Of a DNA stretch of 64,000 nt, positions 20,548 through 29,219 are shown piece after piece. The notes beneath the pieces were generated by a model that saw only the letters and a list, made by a program, of their open reading frames with translations, did no database searches and was not told where the DNA came from. The stretch comes from Streptomyces lincolnensis (GTDB lineage: Bacteria; Actinomycetota; Actinomycetes; Streptomycetales; Streptomycetaceae), in contig NZ_CP016438.1 in NCBI RefSeq assembly GCF_001685355.1, forward strand, positions 9,238,001 to 9,302,000. The letters run 5' to 3'. Numbering within the stretch: the stretch's first letter is position 1; every line of letters starts with the position of its first letter. The position numbers and the translations under genes are program-made.

Positions 20548-23379
20548 TCACGCCATCTGGCGCCGCACCAGCTCGTGCAGCCGCCCGCCGGTGTCCGCGA
20601 GCAGCTGGGCGGGCGGGCCCTGCTGGGCGACCTTGCCGTTCTCCATGACGATCACGCGGTCGGCGTCCAGCACGGTCGACAGACGGTGGGCGATGACGAT
20701 CCGGGTGGCGTTGAGGGCCTTGGTGGACTCGATCACCGTGCGCTGCGTCTCGTTGTCGAGGGCGCTGGTCGCCTCGTCGAAGAACAGGATCCGCGGCCGG
20801 CGGATCAACGCCTGGGCGATCATGAGGCGTTGGCGCTGCCCGCCGGAGACGGCGCCGCTGCCCGAGACGATGGTGTGCAGCCCCATCGGCATCCGCTGGA
20901 TGTCCTCGGCCAGGCCCGCCATCGCGGCCGCCGCCATCGCCTCCTCCGGCGTGTACGGCTCGGTCCCGCAGATCACGTCCAGGATCGACCCCGTGAACGG
21001 CTGCGCGTGCTGGAGCACCACCCCGCACTGACGGCGCACCGCCGACTGGTCGAGCGCGGCCAGGTCCTGACCGTCGTAGAGCACGCTCCCGGAGACCGGG
21101 CGGTCGAAGCCGATCAGCAGCCTGAGCAGGGTCGACTTGCCGCAACCGCTGGGGCCGACGATCGCCACGAACTCGCCCGGCCGGATCTCGAACGACACGT
21201 CGTCCAGGACCAGCGGACCGTCGTCGGAGTAGCGGAAGGACAGCCTCCGGGCCTCCAGCGCCCCGGTCAGCGGGCCCGGCCGGGTGCTCGCCGTGCGCAC
21301 CTCGGGCGTCGCGTCCAGGACCGGCTTGATCTCCTCGAACAGCGGCAGCGCGGCCACCACCGAGACGAAGGCGCCGGTCAGCGAGGTGACCGAGGTCAGC
21401 AGCATCGTCACCGAGGTGTTGAACGTGAGGAACGCCGACGCCGACATCGTGCCCCGCGCCGGACCCGCCAGCAGCATGAACATCAGCAGGGTGCACAACG
21501 GCAGGTACACCGCGCCCGCCACCGTGGTGAGGTTCTTGATCCGGCCGACCTTCTGCTGGAGCTCACGGCTGCGCGCGAACTGGGAGGCCCAGGCGGCGTA
21601 GGCGTAGTTCTCGGCCGCCGCCACCCGCAGCTTGGGCAGACCGCGCAGGGTCTGGAACGCCTGATTGTTGAGCTTGTTGCCGAGCACCACCAGGCGCCGC
21701 TGCCAGCGCACCTGCCACAGGCCGAGCCCGAGGAACATCGCGGCGATGACGACGAGCATGCCGATCGCGGCCGTCGCCATCGACGCGCTGAACCAGAACA
21801 GCAGCCCCAGGTTCATCGCGCCCACGGTCACCGACTGGGCGACCGTCGGCGCGATGCCCGCCATCATCCGGCGGATCGAGCTGATGCCCATGGCCTGGCT
21901 GGCCAGTTCACCCGTCGAGCGCTCGGTGAAGAACTTCGTCGGCAGCCTCAGCAGCCGGTCCCACACCGCCGGCTGGAGCGTCGCCTCGATCCGGCCCTCC
22001 AGACGCAGCATGGTGAGGTTCTGCATCAGCATGAACACCGCCGCCACCACACTGCTGACGATGACGGCCAGACACACCTGCACGATCAGATCGGTCTGCG
22101 CCTTCGGCACGAACTCGCCGAGCACCTTGCCCGTCGCGATCGGCACCAGCGCCCCGATCGCGACCGTCACCAGCATGCTGACCAGCAGGTTCGTCATGTC
22201 GCCCGTCGTGCCGCGCATGCTGAACCTGAGCAGCCCGAGCGGGCTGAGCCCACGGTCCGGCAGCGGACGGTAGAACATCACCGCACGCGGTTCGAACTCC
22301 TCCGCGTTGTCCTTCTCGATCGGCGTCTCGCGCCCGGTCGCCGGATGCACCGCCACATACCCGCCGCGCCGCCACAGCAGCGCGACCGGCGCCCCCGACA
22401 GTGCCCGGTGGCCCACCAGCGGTCCGACGTTGTCACGCCACCACCGGCCGTCCAGACGTACGGCCCGCACGCGGACGCGGGAGGCCAGGGCGATCTGCTC
22501 GATCGGATCGAGGCGGTCGCTCTCGGTGCCGCTCTGCGCGGGCTCCGCGAGGGGAATCCCGGCCGCCTGGGCGACCAGCTTGCAGGCCGCGTAACTGGCG
22601 TCCGCGTCGGCGGACGTCGTACGCCGCTTGGACTTGCCGATGGACGCCAGCAGCGTCTGGTCCGCCTGGGCGCGGACGGCCTCACCGGCCTTGATGCCCG
22701 CGGCCGTACGGGTCTCGTGGGTGCGCTCCAGCTGCTCGATCCAGCGGTCCAGCGCGGTCAGCAGCCGGTACTGCTGGTCGACCATGCTCTGCCACACCGC
22801 GGGGTCCATCAGCAGGTCGGCGGCGGCCTCCTGCCCGTACAGCGAGCCGTACTGGACGCTGCCCGGCGGCACCTGCATCCAGAAGACGTCGTCGTCGGCC
22901 ACCTCGGCGGCTCCCTCGGTGGCCATCGGCGCCTGGAAGAGCACGGACAGGCTGCGGCCGACGCCGAGCGCGAGGGCGTACTCCAGGGGGCTGGTCGTCG
23001 GCGGCACGTACTGCGGGTTGCCGTACTCGTCGTACGACCAGGTCTGGGTGTGCGCGGGCTCGTACAGCTCGCGCAGCCCGATGCGGTGCACCACGCAGTC
23101 CCTGAGCGGCCGGGCCACCAGCGTGTGCTGGGGCCCCGCCACCGGACCGAGCAGCAGCGCGCCCGGTTCCAGACGGCCCAGATGGTGCCAGTGGCCCTGC
23201 TGCTCGGCGTCCACCGCGAACAGGTCCACCGCGCCCGACACGACCAGCCACAGCACCTGCGGCCCTTCGAGGTCGAGGCGGTTGAAACCGGCGCAGTCGA
23301 TCCGCGTGCCCATCGCGCCTAGCGCGTTGAGGACGAGGTCGCCTCCGTAGGGGGAGGCCATGTCACCTGGGGAGCTCAT
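20548..23379 (-). CDS. NHLM-type bacteriocin ABC transporter, ATP-binding/permease, with cyclic-nucleotide-binding-like N-terminus
   Basis: A 943-residue ABC exporter half. Residues about 30-130 (RLDLEGPQVLWLVVSGAVDLFAVD, LGRLEPGALLLGP) look like a cNMP-binding-type beta barrel, the mark of the second ABC subunit in NHLM export systems. A helical linker follows, then six transmembrane helices (about 410-690) and a nucleotide-binding domain with Walker A GPSGCGKST, signature SGGQRQRL and Walker B ILFFDEATSALD. It has no peptidase domain. ATG 23379 is 1 base after the stop of the C39 transporter gene. It probably pairs with that transporter or acts after it to secrete the small double-glycine peptide encoded at 26500-26715. 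Confidence 0.92.
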   Translation of the reverse strand: MSSPGDMASPYGGDLVLNALGAMGTRIDCAGFNRLDLEGPQVLWLVVSGAVDLFAVDAEQQGHWHHLGRLEPGALLLGPVAGPQHTLVARPLRDCVVHRIGLRELYEPAHTQTWSYDEYGNPQYVPPTTSPLEYALALGVGRSLSVLFQAPMATEGAAEVADDDVFWMQVPPGSVQYGSLYGQEAAADLLMDPAVWQSMVDQQYRLLTALDRWIEQLERTHETRTAAGIKAGEAVRAQADQTLLASIGKSKRRTTSADADASYAACKLVAQAAGIPLAEPAQSGTESDRLDPIEQIALASRVRVRAVRLDGRWWRDNVGPLVGHRALSGAPVALLWRRGGYVAVHPATGRETPIEKDNAEEFEPRAVMFYRPLPDRGLSPLGLLRFSMRGTTGDMTNLLVSMLVTVAIGALVPIATGKVLGEFVPKAQTDLIVQVCLAVIVSSVVAAVFMLMQNLTMLRLEGRIEATLQPAVWDRLLRLPTKFFTERSTGELASQAMGISSIRRMMAGIAPTVAQSVTVGAMNLGLLFWFSASMATAAIGMLVVIAAMFLGLGLWQVRWQRRLVVLGNKLNNQAFQTLRGLPKLRVAAAENYAYAAWASQFARSRELQQKVGRIKNLTTVAGAVYLPLCTLLMFMLLAGPARGTMSASAFLTFNTSVTMLLTSVTSLTGAFVSVVAALPLFEEIKPVLDATPEVRTASTRPGPLTGALEARRLSFRYSDDGPLVLDDVSFEIRPGEFVAIVGPSGCGKSTLLRLLIGFDRPVSGSVLYDGQDLAALDQSAVRRQCGVVLQHAQPFTGSILDVICGTEPYTPEEAMAAAAMAGLAEDIQRMPMGLHTIVSGSGAVSGGQRQRLMIAQALIRRPRILFFDEATSALDNETQRTVIESTKALNATRIVIAHRLSTVLDADRVIVMENGKVAQQGPPAQLLADTGGRLHELVRRQMA

Positions 23380-23380
23380 G

Positions 23381-25603
23381 TCACCGTTCCTTGACCAGCG
23401 CCGCGTACGCGCCCCCGCGCGCCACCAGCTCCTCGTGCCGCCCGCGTTCCACGATCGTGCCGTGCTGGAGTACGACGATCTCGTCGCTGTCGCGCACGGT
23501 GCTCAGCCGGTGCGCGATCACCACACAGGCACAGCCGCGCTTGCGCAGGTTGTCCATGACCACCAGCTCGGTCTCCGCGTCCAGCGCGCTGGTCACCTCG
23601 TCGAGCACCAGGATGCTCGGCCGGCGCACCAACGCCCGGGCGATCTCCAGTCGTTGGCGCTGACCGCCGGAGAAGTTGCGCCCGTCCTGCTCGACCTTGC
23701 TCTGGATACCGCCGGGCCGGCGCATCACCACGTCGTACAGGGCCGCATCGCGCAGGGCGTCGACCACGGCGTCGTCCGGGATCGACGGGTCCCACAGCGC
23801 GATGTTGTCGCGGATCGAGCCCTCGAAGAGGAACACGTCCTGGTCGACGAAGGAGACCGAGGACGCGAGCGCGCCGCGCGGGATGTCGTCCAGGCGCTGT
23901 CCGTCGATGCGGATCACGCCCTCCCAGGGCGTGTACAGGCCCGAGATCAGCCGGGACACCGTCGACTTGCCGCTGCCGGAGCCGCCGACCAGAGCGACCT
24001 GCTGGCCCGGGCCCACGGTCAGGTCGAAGCCCGTGAGCAGCGGCTTGTCCAGCGGGTTGTAGCCGAAGGTGATGTTCTCCAGCTCGACATGGCCGTGCAG
24101 CCGGCGCGTGGAGTCGCCGGCGCCCGGGCGGCCGTAGAGCGGATCGGCCTGGAAGTTCTCCACGTCCTTCAGACGGGCCACGTCGGCCGCGAAGTCCTGG
24201 ATGCGGCTCGCGACGCCGTTGAGGCGGGTGATCGGGGCGGTGAAGCGGGTGACCAGGGCCTGGAAGGCGACCAGCAGGCCGACGGAGATACCGCCCTCGA
24301 TCGCCCGCATACCGCCGATCCACAGGATGAGCGCGCTGTTCAGACTGGCGAGCGTCGGCGCGACCACACCCAGCCAGGCACTCGGCACCCCGAGCCGCTG
24401 CTGTTCCTCCAGTGTGGTGGCGTGCTGCCCCGCCCACTTGCGGAAGTAGCCCTCCTCGCCGCCGGTCGCCTTCATCGTCTCGATCAGCTGGAGGCCGGTG
24501 TAGGCGGTGTTGGTGAGCCGGGCGCTGTCGGCCCGCAGCTTCGCCGTACGGGTGGCGCGCAGCCGGATGACGACCCGCATGGCCACCACGTTCAGCAGCG
24601 CCACACCGATACCGACGTAGGTCAGCTGGGGGTCGTAGGTGTAGAGGAGGACCGCGTAGAGGACGACGACGACCGCGTCCACGCCGGCCGCCGCGAGGTC
24701 GCGGGCCAGGGTCTCGGCCACCTGGTCGTTGGACTGGAGGCGCTGCACCAGGTCGGCCGGGCTGCGCTGGGAGAAGAAGGTGACCGGCAGCCGCAGCAGA
24801 TGCCGCAGGAAGCGGGCGCTGGAGAGGGTGGAGGAGATGATCCGGCCGTGCAGCAGGTTCGCCTGCTGGAGCCAGGTCAGCACCAGGGTGAGCAGCACGC
24901 TCGCACCCATCGACGCGAACAGCACGCCGAGCAGCGAGGTCTGGCCCCCGATCAGGAACATGTCGATGTACTGGCGGCTCAGCGCGGGCACCGTCGCACC
25001 GACCAGCACCAGCAGCAGACTCGCCAGCACCGCCGCCGGCATGGTGCCCGCGGTACCGCGCAGCCGGGCCGGCATCGCGCCCAGCACCCCCGGCTTGCGG
25101 CCACCCCTGGTGAAGCCCTCGCCGGGCTCCATCACCAGGACGACTCCGGTGAAGCTGCCGTCGAAGTCCTCCATGGGCACGAAACGGCGGCCCTTGCCGG
25201 GGTCGTTGATGTACACCCCGCGGCGGCCGAAGCGGCGGCCCATGCCGTCGTAGACGACGTAGTGGTTGAACTCCCAGAACAGCACGGCCGGCGTCTGCAC
25301 GTCGGCGAGCGCGGCCGTGTCCATCTGCATGCCCTTGGCCGTCAGGCCGTAACTGCGGGCCGCCTTGAGGAGGTTGCTCGCGCGCGAGCCGTCCCGCGAG
25401 ACACCGCAGGCGATCCGCAACTCCTCCAACGGGATGTGTCTGCCGTAGTGGCCGAGCACCATCGCCAGCGAGGCGGCGCCGCACTCCACGGCCTCCATCT
25501 GGAGGACGGTGGGTGTGCGGACCGTCTTCGCCCTGCTCTTGGGGACCGGGCGCTTGGGCGGGGCGGAACGGCGCCGGCTCCGGGTGTCCGGTGCGGTGCT
25601 CAC
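23381..25603 (-). CDS. NHLM-type bacteriocin ABC transporter with N-terminal C39 peptidase
   Basis: A 740-residue exporter that should cut a double-glycine leader and export the peptide. The C39 peptidase occupies about residues 30-160: Cys41 in QMEAVECGAASLAMVLGHYG, the His in EFNHYVVYDGMGRRFG and the Asp in INDPGKGRRF form the triad. Six transmembrane helices follow, then the ATPase (Walker A GGSGSGKST, FSGGQRQRLEIARAL, Walker B ILVLDEVTSALD). GTG 25603 overlaps the upstream stop as GTGA, which fixes the start. All catalytic residues are present, so it looks active. The obvious substrate is the GG-leader peptide two genes upstream. Confidence 0.94.
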   Translation of the reverse strand: MSTAPDTRSRRRSAPPKRPVPKSRAKTVRTPTVLQMEAVECGAASLAMVLGHYGRHIPLEELRIACGVSRDGSRASNLLKAARSYGLTAKGMQMDTAALADVQTPAVLFWEFNHYVVYDGMGRRFGRRGVYINDPGKGRRFVPMEDFDGSFTGVVLVMEPGEGFTRGGRKPGVLGAMPARLRGTAGTMPAAVLASLLLVLVGATVPALSRQYIDMFLIGGQTSLLGVLFASMGASVLLTLVLTWLQQANLLHGRIISSTLSSARFLRHLLRLPVTFFSQRSPADLVQRLQSNDQVAETLARDLAAAGVDAVVVVLYAVLLYTYDPQLTYVGIGVALLNVVAMRVVIRLRATRTAKLRADSARLTNTAYTGLQLIETMKATGGEEGYFRKWAGQHATTLEEQQRLGVPSAWLGVVAPTLASLNSALILWIGGMRAIEGGISVGLLVAFQALVTRFTAPITRLNGVASRIQDFAADVARLKDVENFQADPLYGRPGAGDSTRRLHGHVELENITFGYNPLDKPLLTGFDLTVGPGQQVALVGGSGSGKSTVSRLISGLYTPWEGVIRIDGQRLDDIPRGALASSVSFVDQDVFLFEGSIRDNIALWDPSIPDDAVVDALRDAALYDVVMRRPGGIQSKVEQDGRNFSGGQRQRLEIARALVRRPSILVLDEVTSALDAETELVVMDNLRKRGCACVVIAHRLSTVRDSDEIVVLQHGTIVERGRHEELVARGGAYAALVKER

Positions 25604-26406
25604 GGCAGCAGCCAATCGACGGGACGCTGGTCGGCCAGCCGGATCGAGCCCGAGGCCGCGGTCATGGACGTGAGAGTGAACGGCGGTCCGTCCGCGGACG
25701 ACCACCGGTAGCCGCTTTTGGTGTCCTTCGACCTGTCCAGCCGCACCAGGACCGCCACCGGCCGGCCGTCCTTGGTGAACTGCTCGCCGAGCTGGCTGTC
25801 GCCGAGGAACGCGGCGATCTGCTGCGCGGACTGGGCGGAACGGTCCACCGACTTCACATGGCCGCGCAGCACGCCGTACTCCTGGGTGGGCACCGAGGAG
25901 ACGGTCAGGTCCACGGCGGCGTTCTCGGGAATGGAGGCCGCGTTCTCGGCGGGCACGTACACGGTGGCGTACAGGGGGTCGGAGGCGCGGGCGACCTTCT
26001 CCACGGCGGCGACGTTCGCGCCGGTGGAGATGATCTGCCCGATGGTCGCGGCGAGCGCTGTGACCCGGCCCGCGGCGACCGTGCGCACCACCGTGTCGCC
26101 CTCGGCCGTACGGACCTTCAGTACGGGGGAGTCGGCGGGCAGCCGCTGGCCCTCCTCCGCGATCACCTCGGTGACCTGGCCCGCGACCGGGCTCTGGAGG
26201 ATGTAACTGCCTTCCGCGTGCGTGAGGATGGCGGGCGCGCTCACGGTGGAGGCGACCGAGCCGGTCACCGCCCACACGGAGGCCGCGGCCATGGCCACCA
26301 CGGTCACGGACAGCACGAGCCAGCCCTGGGGGCGGGCGAAGCGCACCGGAAGGTCGAGTTCCTCCGGCGACTGGAGCTTGGCGAGGGCCTGTTGGCGGAA
26401 CTGCAC
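25600..26406 (-). CDS. HlyD-like membrane fusion protein of NHLM bacteriocin export system
   Basis: A 268-residue protein with a short cytoplasmic N-terminus (FRQQALAKLQSPEELDLPVRFARPQGW), one transmembrane helix (LVLSVTVVAMAAASVWAV) and an extracytoplasmic barrel-sandwich part (APAILTHAEGSYILQSPVAGQVTEVIAEEGQRLPADSPVLKVRTAEGD, the lipoyl-like half motif). SPEELDLPVRF is the signature start of NHLM secretion proteins. It would couple the two ABC subunits for export. GTG 26406 has a GAGGGAAG sequence upstream. It follows the precursor gene after an intrinsic terminator and overlaps the next gene by 4 bases. Confidence 0.9.
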   Translation of the reverse strand: MQFRQQALAKLQSPEELDLPVRFARPQGWLVLSVTVVAMAAASVWAVTGSVASTVSAPAILTHAEGSYILQSPVAGQVTEVIAEEGQRLPADSPVLKVRTAEGDTVVRTVAAGRVTALAATIGQIISTGANVAAVEKVARASDPLYATVYVPAENAASIPENAAVDLTVSSVPTQEYGVLRGHVKSVDRSAQSAQQIAAFLGDSQLGEQFTKDGRPVAVLVRLDRSKDTKSGYRWSSADGPPFTLTSMTAASGSIRLADQRPVDWLLP

Positions 26407-26443
26407 GGAACTTCCCTCACCTGGAGAGATCTTTTGAGGCAGG

Positions 26444-26475
26444 CAAAAGCCCCGGAGCCGGGATACGGCTCCGGG
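26444..26475 (-). terminator. Intrinsic terminator/attenuator between precursor peptide and exporter genes
   Basis: On the minus strand CCCGGAGCCG-TATCC-CGGCTCCGGG forms a perfect 10-bp stem followed by GCTTTTGCC. It lies after the precursor stop and before the HlyD-like start, so most transcripts would end after the peptide gene while some read through to the transporters. Confidence 0.85.
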
Positions 26476-26499
26476 ACTCAGTGATCACATCTGGTGCGA

Positions 26500-26715
26500 T
26501 CAGAGACCGGAAACCAGGTTGGTGACCGCACCGGTGTTCAGGCCGGTGGCGCCCTCGACGGTGCCGACGACCGTGTTGACCAGGCCGGAGACCGGGGCAA
26601 CGCCGTCCACCAGGCCGGTGACGGTGCCCAGGGCGTTCAGCTGCAGGCCGCCGGAGACGTTGTCGAGCTCGGCGTCGGAGATCTCGACGGTCTCAACCTG
26701 GGGGGTGGAGTTCAT
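26500..26715 (-). CDS. Double-glycine-leader peptide precursor, Cys-free core (putative unmodified bacteriocin-like peptide)
   Basis: A 71-residue precursor. The leader MNSTPQVETVEISDAELDNV ends in SGG (G22-G23), with I12, L17 and V20 at the hydrophobic positions that C39 peptidases read. The predicted 48-residue core runs from L24 to L71 and contains only G, V, L, T, N, S, A, D, E, P and Q: no Cys, no aromatic and no basic residue. Four GxxxG motifs (G30-34, 34-38, 51-55, 58-62) suggest helix-helix packing. With no Cys and no modifying enzyme nearby it cannot be a lanthipeptide or sactipeptide; an unmodified class II-type bacteriocin, a signal or a surface peptide are options. ATG 26715 has AAGGGAAG upstream; the ATG at 26733 lies within that ribosome site. 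Export genes follow. Confidence 0.88.
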   Translation of the reverse strand: MNSTPQVETVEISDAELDNVSGGLQLNALGTVTGLVDGVAPVSGLVNTVVGTVEGATGLNTGAVTNLVSGL

Positions 26716-27229
26716 GATGGAACTTCCCTTCATATGGATATTTCACAAGGGGGGAGCGGCCCCCTCTGGGGACAGACGGACGGCCGCGACCGCAGGTGCC
26801 GGGATCCCGTTTCCGGAACTGCCCTGTGCGGCCCCTGCGGTGCGATGGATCAAAGCACGCGGCGGCGGCGCGCATCCAATCAACCATCCGTCCCACCAGG
26901 GCACTTGTGCCTCATGAGCACCGTTGAGTGCAGGACTGCGCACGTCGTGGTGGCGAGTTCTTCACATGAGCCGCCGCATCGGCCCGTACGACCTCTTGCG
27001 GCCCGGCGAGCGAATCCGACACTCCGCGCCAATGGTCGACGCCCGTCATTTCCCTGTGCGATTCATTTCCGTGCCGTGATGCCCTTGGGAAGCACGTGTG
27101 CAGATTCTCTGGAGGGAGGATTCGACGCCGTGTTCGCGACCGACCGTTGCGGGCCGGTCGCCGACCGTGTCGGTTCGGCCGTGTCGTTTCGGATGTGCCG
27201 GATGTCAGCCGAGAAGTGCGCGTCGGATG
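26716..27229. other. Upstream region of precursor peptide gene
   Basis: 514 bases between the peptide precursor and the thioesterase 3' end, slightly less GC-rich than its surroundings. It must hold the promoter and any regulator sites of the peptide operon. No convincing gene was found on either strand. A 22-bp direct repeat starts at 27199. Confidence 0.5.
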
Positions 27230-27643: not shown

Positions 27644-27830
27644 ATGGGGGATTGTTCCCCCTGCCGCGGCGCCCGGCGCCGGTCATGGCCGATTCGCAGT
27701 CGCACGCGGGGCGCGCGGAAACGGAATTGAACGCCCCGCGCAACCCGTGCGTACCTCCTGCCATCCAGGCGCCCCCCAACAACTGCCGCCCGGCGGCAGC
27801 ACACTCCGGTCCCTCAGGAGGTCGAGAAGT

Positions 27831-29219
27831 TTGAGTCACAAGCGAATTCCGAAGCGCAAGGCCGCGATAGCGGCGGGCAGTGTGGTGGCGCTCGGAGCTG
27901 CCGCCATCCTGCTCCCGAACGCCAACGCCTCCCAGGACGGCGGGTCGGACGACGCCGCCGCCGCGCCGAAGACCCTCAAGGCGGGAGACGCCTCGGACCT
28001 CGCCTCACAACTCCAGAATCTGCTGGGCGACGCCTTCGCCGGTTCCTACTACGACGGTGACAGCCAGCAGTTGGTCGTCAACGTCATCTCCGGCGACGAG
28101 AACAACGTGATCGTGCAGGCGAAGAAGGCGGGCGCAAAGATCCGCGAGGTCGACAACAGCCTCTCGGAACTGTCGGCCGGCGCGCAGACGCTGAAGACCG
28201 AGGCGACCATCCCCGGCACCTCCTGGGCCGTCGACCCGCGGACGAACAAGATCCTCGTCACCGCGGACTCCACGGTCACCGGCGCCAAGTGGGACAGACT
28301 GGAATCGACGGTCGAGACCCTCGGTTCCGGCATGGCCACCATCAAGAAGTCGGCCGGCACCTTCAAGACCTTCCTCTCCGGCGGCGACGCCATCTTCGGC
28401 GGCGGTGCACGCTGCTCGGCCGGCTTCAACGTCACCGCGGGCGACGGCAGCCCCGCCTTCCTGACCGCCGGTCACTGCGGGGTCGCGGAGGCCGCGTGGT
28501 CCGACACGGAGGGCGGCGAGCCGATCGCCACCGTGGACGCGGCCACCGCCACCTTCCCCGGTGACGGCGACTTCGCCCTGGTGAAGTACGACGACCCGGC
28601 CACCGAGGCGCCGAGCGACGTCAACGTCGGCGGCGGCCAGACCGTCGCCATCTCCCAGGCCGCCGATGCCACGGTCGGCCAGGAGGTGTTCCGGATGGGC
28701 AGCACCACCGGGCTCGCCGACGGCCAGGTCCTCGGACTCGACGCCACCGTGAACTACCCGGAGGGCACGGTCACCGGGCTCATCCAGACCAACGTCTGCG
28801 CCGAGCCCGGCGACAGCGGCGGCTCCATGTTCACCCAGGACGGTCTGGCCCTCGGTCTGACCTCCGGCGGCAGCGGCGACTGCACGGTCGGTGGCGAGAC
28901 CTTCTTCCAGCCGGTCACCACCGCCCTGGAAGCGGTCGGCGCGACGCTCGGTGAGGGCGGCGCGGCCGGCGGCGCGGGCGACCAGGCCGGTGGCGAGGAA
29001 GCCGGCGGTGAAGAGGCCGGCGGTGCAGGGGCCGGCGCGGGCGACCAGGCCGGTGGCGAAGAGGCCGGCGCCGGTGAGGAAGCCGGAGCGGGCGAGGAAG
29101 CGGGCGCGGGCGAGGAGGCCGGCGCCGGTGAAGAGGCCGGGGTCGGCGAGGACACCGGGGTCGGTCAGGAGACCGGAACCGGTGCCGAGGGCGAGTCGGG
29201 CCTGAACCACACCAACTGA
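27831..29219 (+). CDS. Secreted S1-family (streptogrisin/alpha-lytic-like) serine protease with acidic repeat tail
   Basis: A 462-residue secreted protease. It uses a TTG start at 27831, nine bases after AGGAGG at 27816-27821; no better start lies nearby. A signal peptide (about 1-31, KRIPKRKAAIAAGSVVALGA) leads into an alpha-lytic-type pro-region and then the catalytic domain: TAGHCGVA (His), GDGDFALVKY (Asp), EPGDSGGSMF (Ser). After the catalytic domain ends near EAVGATL comes about 80 residues of Gly/Ala/Glu repeat (units such as GAGEEA and AGGEEAGG) with no binding motif, perhaps a wall-spanning or spacer tail. It lies between two peptide-export loci, so a role in leader or peptide processing is possible. 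A strong terminator follows. Confidence 0.9.
   Translation: MSHKRIPKRKAAIAAGSVVALGAAAILLPNANASQDGGSDDAAAAPKTLKAGDASDLASQLQNLLGDAFAGSYYDGDSQQLVVNVISGDENNVIVQAKKAGAKIREVDNSLSELSAGAQTLKTEATIPGTSWAVDPRTNKILVTADSTVTGAKWDRLESTVETLGSGMATIKKSAGTFKTFLSGGDAIFGGGARCSAGFNVTAGDGSPAFLTAGHCGVAEAAWSDTEGGEPIATVDAATATFPGDGDFALVKYDDPATEAPSDVNVGGGQTVAISQAADATVGQEVFRMGSTTGLADGQVLGLDATVNYPEGTVTGLIQTNVCAEPGDSGGSMFTQDGLALGLTSGGSGDCTVGGETFFQPVTTALEAVGATLGEGGAAGGAGDQAGGEEAGGEEAGGAGAGAGDQAGGEEAGAGEEAGAGEEAGAGEEAGAGEEAGVGEDTGVGQETGTGAEGESGLNHTN
28959..29205. repeat. Repeat array encoding Gly/Ala/Glu-rich tail of the S1 protease
   Basis: Imperfect tandem units of about 15-18 bp (GGCGAGGAAGCGGGCGCG-like) encode repeated (A/G)GEEAG blocks. 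The array would be prone to copy-number change between strains. Confidence 0.8.

Follow-up and report, generated by a model that had tools for sequence, protein, structure and literature searches.

The window considered here is a stretch of 64,000 nucleotides of the Streptomyces lincolnensis genome, which is a single 10.3-Mb contig (NZ_CP016438.1; the window covers positions 9,238,001 to 9,302,000). On its minus strand, from 26715 to 20548, it carries four genes, all intact and in the order given in a preliminary description of the region: a peptide precursor with a double-glycine leader, an HlyD-like adaptor, an ATP-binding cassette (ABC) transporter with a C39 peptidase domain (ABC1), and an NHLM-type ABC transporter (ABC2). 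We consider it likely that these genes form a dedicated secretion operon for a group of secreted peptides that are unmodified and regulated together, and that its exporter is shared with precursors encoded at unlinked sites. This reading was reached by comparison of sequences, namely of gene order, shared leader and promoter, a hairpin behind the precursor, the co-occurrence of exporter and leader, and the lack of a linked LanM, YcaO or SagB enzyme; the regulation of the corresponding operon of Streptomyces coelicolor has been shown by others (PMC6629963; this paper, as well as PMC5733086, PMC5882110, PMC6414726 and PMC13047742, is cited here for the accessible portions of its text).

Leader and exporter are distributed together across the genus. 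A 24-residue leader profile (A1) finds matches in 144 of 199 Streptomyces genomes, and when these are set beside matches to the NHLM ABC1 family above cut-off, 141 genomes carry both, 51 neither, three the leader only and four ABC1 only (Fisher P 8e-39). The leader-only genomes comprise one that is 79% complete, one that is fragmented and one with a broken ABC1 (L239), and two of the four exporter-only genomes (L240, L241) carry a divergent NHLM type. At L239, ABC1 lies in two pieces in different frames, and the genome keeps three leader matches. The window genome possesses one C39 peptidase/exporter only and two leaders, that of the operon and another at 1.23 Mb (MNSISPIETAEILDADLDTISGG), which precedes a core with one Cys and has no exporter nearby. 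Among the 144 leader-bearing genomes, 64 have two to five leader matches (224 matches in total over the 199 genomes), some of the additional ones being tandem copies at the exporter (L064). From 48 loci, 52 unlinked or orphan precursors were read, loci L217, L221 and L232 having been dropped as they yielded no open reading frame (ORF) by the leader pattern; no close ABC1 occurs in these 48 loci within the 14-19.5 kb fetched. The leader is near-invariant across precursors (MNSxPQVET.EISDA.LDNVSGG). Since genomes as a rule have one exporter, a straightforward interpretation is that the unlinked precursors are exported in trans, and these comparisons indicate that the exporter probably serves more than one cargo. 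The preliminary description had proposed an orphan system exporting a single cargo, a view that finds no support in a genome whose only C39 exporter coexists with a second leader-sharing precursor, nor in relatives with up to five leader matches.

The orphan cores differ and are of several types, of which one has a phosphoglycerate-mutase gene as its neighbor, another sits between glutamine synthetase and panB, and a third occurs as tandem pairs near methionyl-tRNA synthetase, these gene identities being readings of the sequence; a further type is marked by an SPEG-like motif and has one Cys. At L068 (8987 onward, plus strand) the orphan precursor has a His-rich core with repeated HHG, which suggests metal binding.

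Main (operon-encoded) and orphan precursors also have a promoter element in common. Of 105 distinct main upstream regions, 75 contain the -10-like box GTGCTTTGATCC without mismatch, and matches at 11 or more of its 12 positions are present in 92 of the 105 as well as in 33 of 52 orphan upstream regions, a level reached by about 3 of 10,000 shuffled sequences (all shuffles preserve mononucleotide composition only). The presence of the box in the orphans is independent evidence, because the orphans had been chosen by leader alone. Genome-wide, the exact 12-mer was found at 70 sites in 101 genomes, 54 of which precede a leader gene of the same strand by 41-141 nt, and the reversed control pattern occurred once; the window genome holds 12 sites at up to one mismatch, two of which serve its two precursors. 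By eye, TGG about 21 nt before TTTGAT is kept in most main and orphan upstream regions. Farther out, at a distance of 106-108 nt ahead of the -10 box, 98 of 103 distinct main upstream regions show GTGAAGA matched at 6 or more of its 7 positions, and 93 of the 103 show exact GTGAAG, against a frequency of 0.0014 in shuffles; in the orphans GTGAAG lies at 103-109 or 58-69 nt in 26 of 51 regions against 0.003 in shuffles, for distance ranges picked after looking. For these counts 154 of 157 upstream regions were kept, regions being left out where fewer than 9 of the 12 box positions matched or where the upstream DNA was too short. A GTGAA-N17-GTGAA direct repeat with the 22-bp spacing of the OmpR type was also considered and was set aside in favor of the GTGAAG box: scores of at least 9 were obtained by 29 sequences at spacing 22 and by 23 at spacing 9, and the orphans exceeded shuffles just modestly.

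The 16 exact sites not serving a precursor comprise seven instances of one conserved site, four that belong to a leaderless small ORF, and five single ones. The conserved site (G000:C1:5895216, L283, and six relatives) reads GAGCCTGGTGCTTTGATCCGGAAC and is followed by a GC-rich hairpin and a T-run, with no precursor. In L282, L288 (near 5001, plus strand), L290 and L292, GTGCTTTGATCC lies a few bases before the ATG of a short ORF (some 30 codons), which closes with Cys-Cys or a like ending and precedes an isopenicillin-N-synthase-like dioxygenase gene; its translation looks like a leaderless attenuator-type peptide. At G000:C1:8873445 (L304), an orphan-like promoter (TTGGCCG ... GTGCGTTGATCC) stands before a nucleotidyltransferase-like ORF, and this is perhaps a lost precursor locus.

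Scattered loci with differing cores might instead encode peptide signals sensed by neighbors or by the producer, each with its own receptor. The precursor of 12 of the 48 orphan loci has a DUF397 gene no more than about 7 kb away (L204 6603-6812, L216, L219, L237 and others), mostly accompanied by an XRE-DUF5753 gene, sometimes within 60 nt, and three core types are involved. The background amounts to 20-38 DUF397 genes per genome (10 genomes). Behind one orphan type (L058 8799-9929, plus strand; L061; L200), the precursor is followed at 17-116 nt by a gene of the extracytoplasmic function (ECF) type that encodes sigma-70 regions 2 and 4. Nevertheless, no receptor gene accompanies the main operon, no published account of sensing was found, and the DUF397 loci represent few independent events that may reflect chance or shared ancestry; we therefore regard a signaling function as unlikely.

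The operon itself is strongly conserved. In all 114 main loci, each 9 kb or longer and selected for a closely related ABC1 (identity of 70% or more), with 80 of them best-ranked and hence close, named relatives from one scan, HlyD, ABC1 and ABC2 follow one another on the same strand, with a leader-bearing ORF upstream, so that the four-gene order suggested for testing proves to be conserved. Wide gaps between blast pieces, as for a broken or divergent gene, are seen in four of these loci (L064, L164, L189, L239), with the order kept. Precursor matches in 139 of the 199 genomes and 694 database homologues at E<=0.01, with names from Streptomyces, exceed what chance would give; one genome (G041) has a whole-precursor match (E 5.8e-4) missed by the leader profile. 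In a class-wide scan the precursor was found in 22 of 296 genomes, all from one genus out of 114, and in an order-wide scan (197 genomes) in two of six genera, from which it follows that this is a Streptomycetaceae trait.

The exporter is shown to be intact by its profile scores, by its catalytic motifs and by its likeness over the full length to a solved bacteriocin transporter. ABC1 scores 1020.2 bits against TIGR03796 (cut-off 853.3) and ABC2 892.9 bits against TIGR03797 (cut-off 709.4). ABC1 holds a C39 domain with Cys, His and Asp motifs, a pattern present in 113 of the 114 loci, together with ATPase motifs, and its residues 33-738 match PDB 4ry2, an 'ABC-type bacteriocin transporter'.

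The precursor has 71 residues (ATG at 26715, stop at 26500-26502), an alternative upstream ATG at 26733 giving a 77-residue form. Its leader ends in ...EISDAELDNVSGG, and the 48-residue core lacks Cys, Lys, Arg, His and aromatic residues, contains one Asp and one Glu, and is composed chiefly of V10, G9, L8 and T7, with Thr and Ser plentiful. No Pfam match was obtained at E<=0.1 and no NCBIfam match above a family cut-off; the six NCBIfam matches at E<=0.1 include no leader of the nitrile-hydratase or Nif11 type. Core Cys is absent from all 105 distinct main precursors and from all 119 database homologues whose core could be parsed, and the absence from the main precursors means that no lanthionine can be formed in them. 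The main cores are acidic (mean charge -2.4) and rich in V, G, L and T; Lys and Arg are missing in 104 of 105, and aromatic residues occur in a single exception. Median dN/dS (ratio of nonsynonymous to synonymous substitution rates) over 1500 sampled pairs is 0.155 for the leader and 0.565 for the core, values that are a hint only, as codon bias at high GC content distorts this ratio. This comparison makes it probable that the product is acidic, rich in Gly and Val and left unmodified, as the preliminary description had supposed.

A double-glycine leader with a C39 exporter is the arrangement of class II bacteriocins, and operon and satellites could accordingly be taken as a multi-peptide antimicrobial arsenal of unmodified class II-type bacteriocins, with several different cores in a single genome and a weak, sub-cut-off likeness of the leader to bacteriocin models (CTB family 15.4 bits, TIGR01847 13.6 bits). 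The S. coelicolor counterpart, SCO0753-0756, has been listed as a 'bacteriocin' cluster. Bacteriocins are, however, usually cationic, unlike these cores, and core identity across species is high (91 to 70% in most, among the matches listed). Moreover, the neighborhood beyond the four genes changes between clades, and no further gene family, and hence no conserved candidate immunity gene, accompanies the operon in all clades (20+ loci clustered). We judge an antimicrobial role quite improbable.

Modification enzymes were sought around the operon in relatives and in the window. In the 114 loci, no tblastn match (E<=1e-5) was obtained with two Streptomyces LanM queries, nor any match with a YcaO protein, a SagB-like nitroreductase-type protein or another protein of a divergent NHLM locus (radical-SAM proteins were not among the queries), so that the conserved linked enzyme which might have spoken against an unmodified product was not seen; the same search recovers RamC in 29 of the 114. 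Within the window, the preliminary description had named the class III synthetase of the ram locus as the sole modification enzyme within 20 kb, and a Pfam scan of 20 further proteins at 6.6-46.2 kb, which covered no small or uncalled ORFs, likewise shows RamC of that locus as the only one. RamA (at least 60% identity) is within reach in 42 of the 114 loci, a lower bound because of flank length. The general remark that NHLM exporters normally serve modified peptides applies to part of the family: divergent NHLM exporters exist in Streptomyces (L240, L241, L242 and L243; ABC1 48-50% identical), and that of L241 adjoins a YcaO protein (Pfam) and a nitroreductase-type enzyme, but the subfamily studied here is consistently without such enzymes. 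LanM-type genes with a C39 transporter are present at L244 and L246. A ribosomally synthesized and post-translationally modified peptide whose enzyme is encoded elsewhere, as the name 'type A2 lantipeptide' in NCBI-derived records implies, is thus very improbable in spite of the abundant Thr and Ser and of RamC 7 kb away in the window, given the Cys-free main cores, the absence of LanM, YcaO and SagB relatives from the 114 loci and the inconstant ram link. The name, taken at face value by a 2026 paper (PMC13047742), is a misnomer.

In S. coelicolor, SCO0753 was described as a 77-residue, Cys-free hydrophobic peptide (Arroyo-Perez et al. 2019, PMC6629963). By RNA-seq, an activating change in the sensor SCO5282 makes it the single most overexpressed gene (log2 6.3) and raises the exporter genes SCO0754-0756 by 4.3-4.4, and the strain shows dispersed growth instead of pellets; in the SCO5282/5283 two-component null mutant, SCO0753-0756 are almost silent (PMC6629963). 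SCO5283 is an OmpR-type regulator (PMC9739842) and is the obvious candidate activator for the GTGAAG box, a match that we infer. SCO0753 is also up in an aor1 mutant, along with two SapB-cluster genes (PMC5733086), and SCO0756 is up on loss of polyprenol phosphate mannose synthase (PMC5882110) and slightly down in a copper-transport mutant (PMC6414726). The 2019 study had already noted conservation of all four genes in an unchanged arrangement, proposed export and remarked on the absence of Cys (PMC6629963). Because this counterpart is published, the main locus is known, and with the leader in 144 of 199 species genomes it can hardly be called unusual for Streptomyces, as had been thought; the locus alone is neither rare nor new, being known and widespread.

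In the mechanism that we propose, the four genes would constitute a dedicated secretion operon, whose precursor would be transcribed from a strong specialized promoter. This promoter would depend on an activator that binds some 100 nt upstream; for S. coelicolor the probable activator is SCO5283. The hairpin would stop most transcripts behind the precursor or stabilize them, so that more peptide than exporter would be produced. Cleavage of the leader after Gly-Gly, the presumed site, would fall to the C39 domain of ABC1, and the unmodified 48-residue core would be exported by ABC1 and ABC2 as a pair with the aid of the HlyD-like protein. Unlinked precursors with the same leader and promoter would be exported in trans by the same exporter, and one exporter would thus deliver a small set of different peptides together. 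The peptides would probably act at the hyphal surface and not as bacteriocins, a role that we favor because the cores are conserved, no immunity-like partner is present and expression follows an envelope-related two-component system (pellet versus dispersed growth). On a bolder proposal our judgment is evenly divided: that this is a genus-specific, envelope-sensor-controlled 'peptide coat' regulon, in which one NHLM exporter and interchangeable unmodified cores from dispersed genes set the surface properties of hyphae (pelleted or dispersed), the genes being tied only by leader and promoter, and the leader serving as a trans secretion tag.

Several points weigh against the reading of a shared exporter for unmodified peptides. 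One or two Cys are present in 9 of the 52 orphan cores, and AlphaFold (22 rows) found no confident fold for the precursor (mean pLDDT confidence score 57.5, weak helices only). Export in trans is something that we infer, and the literature searched contains no detection of the peptide. The 22-bp direct-repeat model for the upstream box is unconvincing; the choice of activator draws on one published genetic contrast, and binding by SCO5283 is not demonstrated in the accessible portions of PMC6629963. The dispersed morphology is tied to 437 changed genes, and a program shared with SapB, which we considered and rejected, is unsupported because RamR falls in the strain that overexpresses SCO0753 (PMC6629963). 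Should the scattered precursors be true cargo of this exporter, a widespread family filed as lanthipeptides would turn into a well-delimited regulon of secreted peptides, recognizable by promoter and leader. This would offer a direct route to finding all members in each genome, to correcting their annotation and to testing what governs the pelleting and surface behavior of hyphae, a practical problem in fermentation.

The features of the locus are collected in Table 1.

Table 1. Elements of the secretion operon in the window (position 1 is the first nucleotide of the stretch).
Feature	Position	Strand	Basis or remark
Upstream box GTGAAGAACTCGCCACCACGACGTG, candidate activator site	26941..26965	-	Starts 107 nt before the -10 box
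Conserved TTGG / -35-like region GATTGGATG	26873..26881	-	Upstream listings, by eye
-10-like box GTGCTTTGATCC	26847..26858	-	Common to main and unlinked precursors
Ribosome-binding site GAAGGGAAG	26723..26731	-	Sequence; kept in upstream alignment
Leader, residues 1-23 (MNSTPQVETVEISDAELDNVSGG)	26647..26715	-	Profile A1 matches in 144/199 Streptomyces genomes
48-residue core and stop codon	26500..26646	-	Cys-free; no K/R/H/aromatics; acidic
Hairpin between precursor stop and HlyD start	26448..26479	-	Strong local hairpin, GC-rich
HlyD-like adaptor	25600..26406	-	TIGR03794 relative (best family), E 3e-42, 145 bits, slightly below curated cut-off 156.2
ABC1, C39 peptidase/permease/ATPase	23381..25603	-	TIGR03796
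ABC2, NHLM-type permease/ATPase without peptidase	20548..23379	-	TIGR03797, ATPase motifs

The hairpin is likely an attenuator or an mRNA-stabilizing element. In an alignment of 14 chosen relatives, 97.8% of hairpin cells are paired and five pairs are altered on both sides (15 cells in all); the covariation score was matched in none of 500 shuffles, and slid versions pair far worse. These 14 of 24 scanned intergenic regions were picked for a recognizable CCCCGG stem, and the alignment leans towards structure because of this selection; L048, L049, L059, L064, L070 and L236 are among the regions with other hairpins.

Upstream of the operon lie a thioesterase-fold gene, a secreted serine protease and the ram (SapB) locus, the last confirmed by the RamC_N and RamS models. 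The protease, of the alpha-lytic type, adjoins the operon (27747-29219, plus strand) and has a relative in 91 of the 114 related loci. On the other side, an MFS gene sits between ABC2 and Ppx.

Among known systems, SCO0753-0756 of S. coelicolor is matched to the window by gene order, size and description: the peptide is followed by an HlyD-like gene and two ABC genes, with the exopolyphosphatase SCO0757 next. The same order with Ppx/GppA is found in S. coelicoflavus (L144), where Ppx directly follows ABC2 as in Table 2 of PMC6629963, and in four other named loci. The accessible portions of that paper are silent on unlinked precursors, on the promoter box and the hairpin, and on the co-occurrence of exporter and leader. 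The dispersed set of precursors sharing leader and promoter seems new, as the searches of open-licence PMC full texts gave no description of it, an absence that is itself weak. SapB, whose ram locus is adjacent in the window, is likewise a small secreted Streptomyces peptide, but it belongs to the class III lanthipeptides and is produced by RamC, whereas the present peptide lacks Cys and has its own exporter. The NHLM/NHLP cluster (Haft et al. 2010, PMC2887384) uses the same three exporter families, TIGR03794 (for which the HlyD-like protein of the window scores slightly below cut-off), TIGR03796 and TIGR03797; the precursor described here differs in being neither of the nitrile-hydratase nor of the Nif11 type, and no YcaO or LanM is linked to it. 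Cyanobacterial double-glycine clusters (Wang et al. 2011, PMC3140520) are alike in combining a C39 ABC transporter, a second ABC transporter and HlyD, and in having several precursors per genome, some of them far from the exporter. Their cores, however, are highly diverse and most of their precursors were counted near the cluster, whereas the Streptomyces core family is conserved genus-wide and its members have a common promoter.

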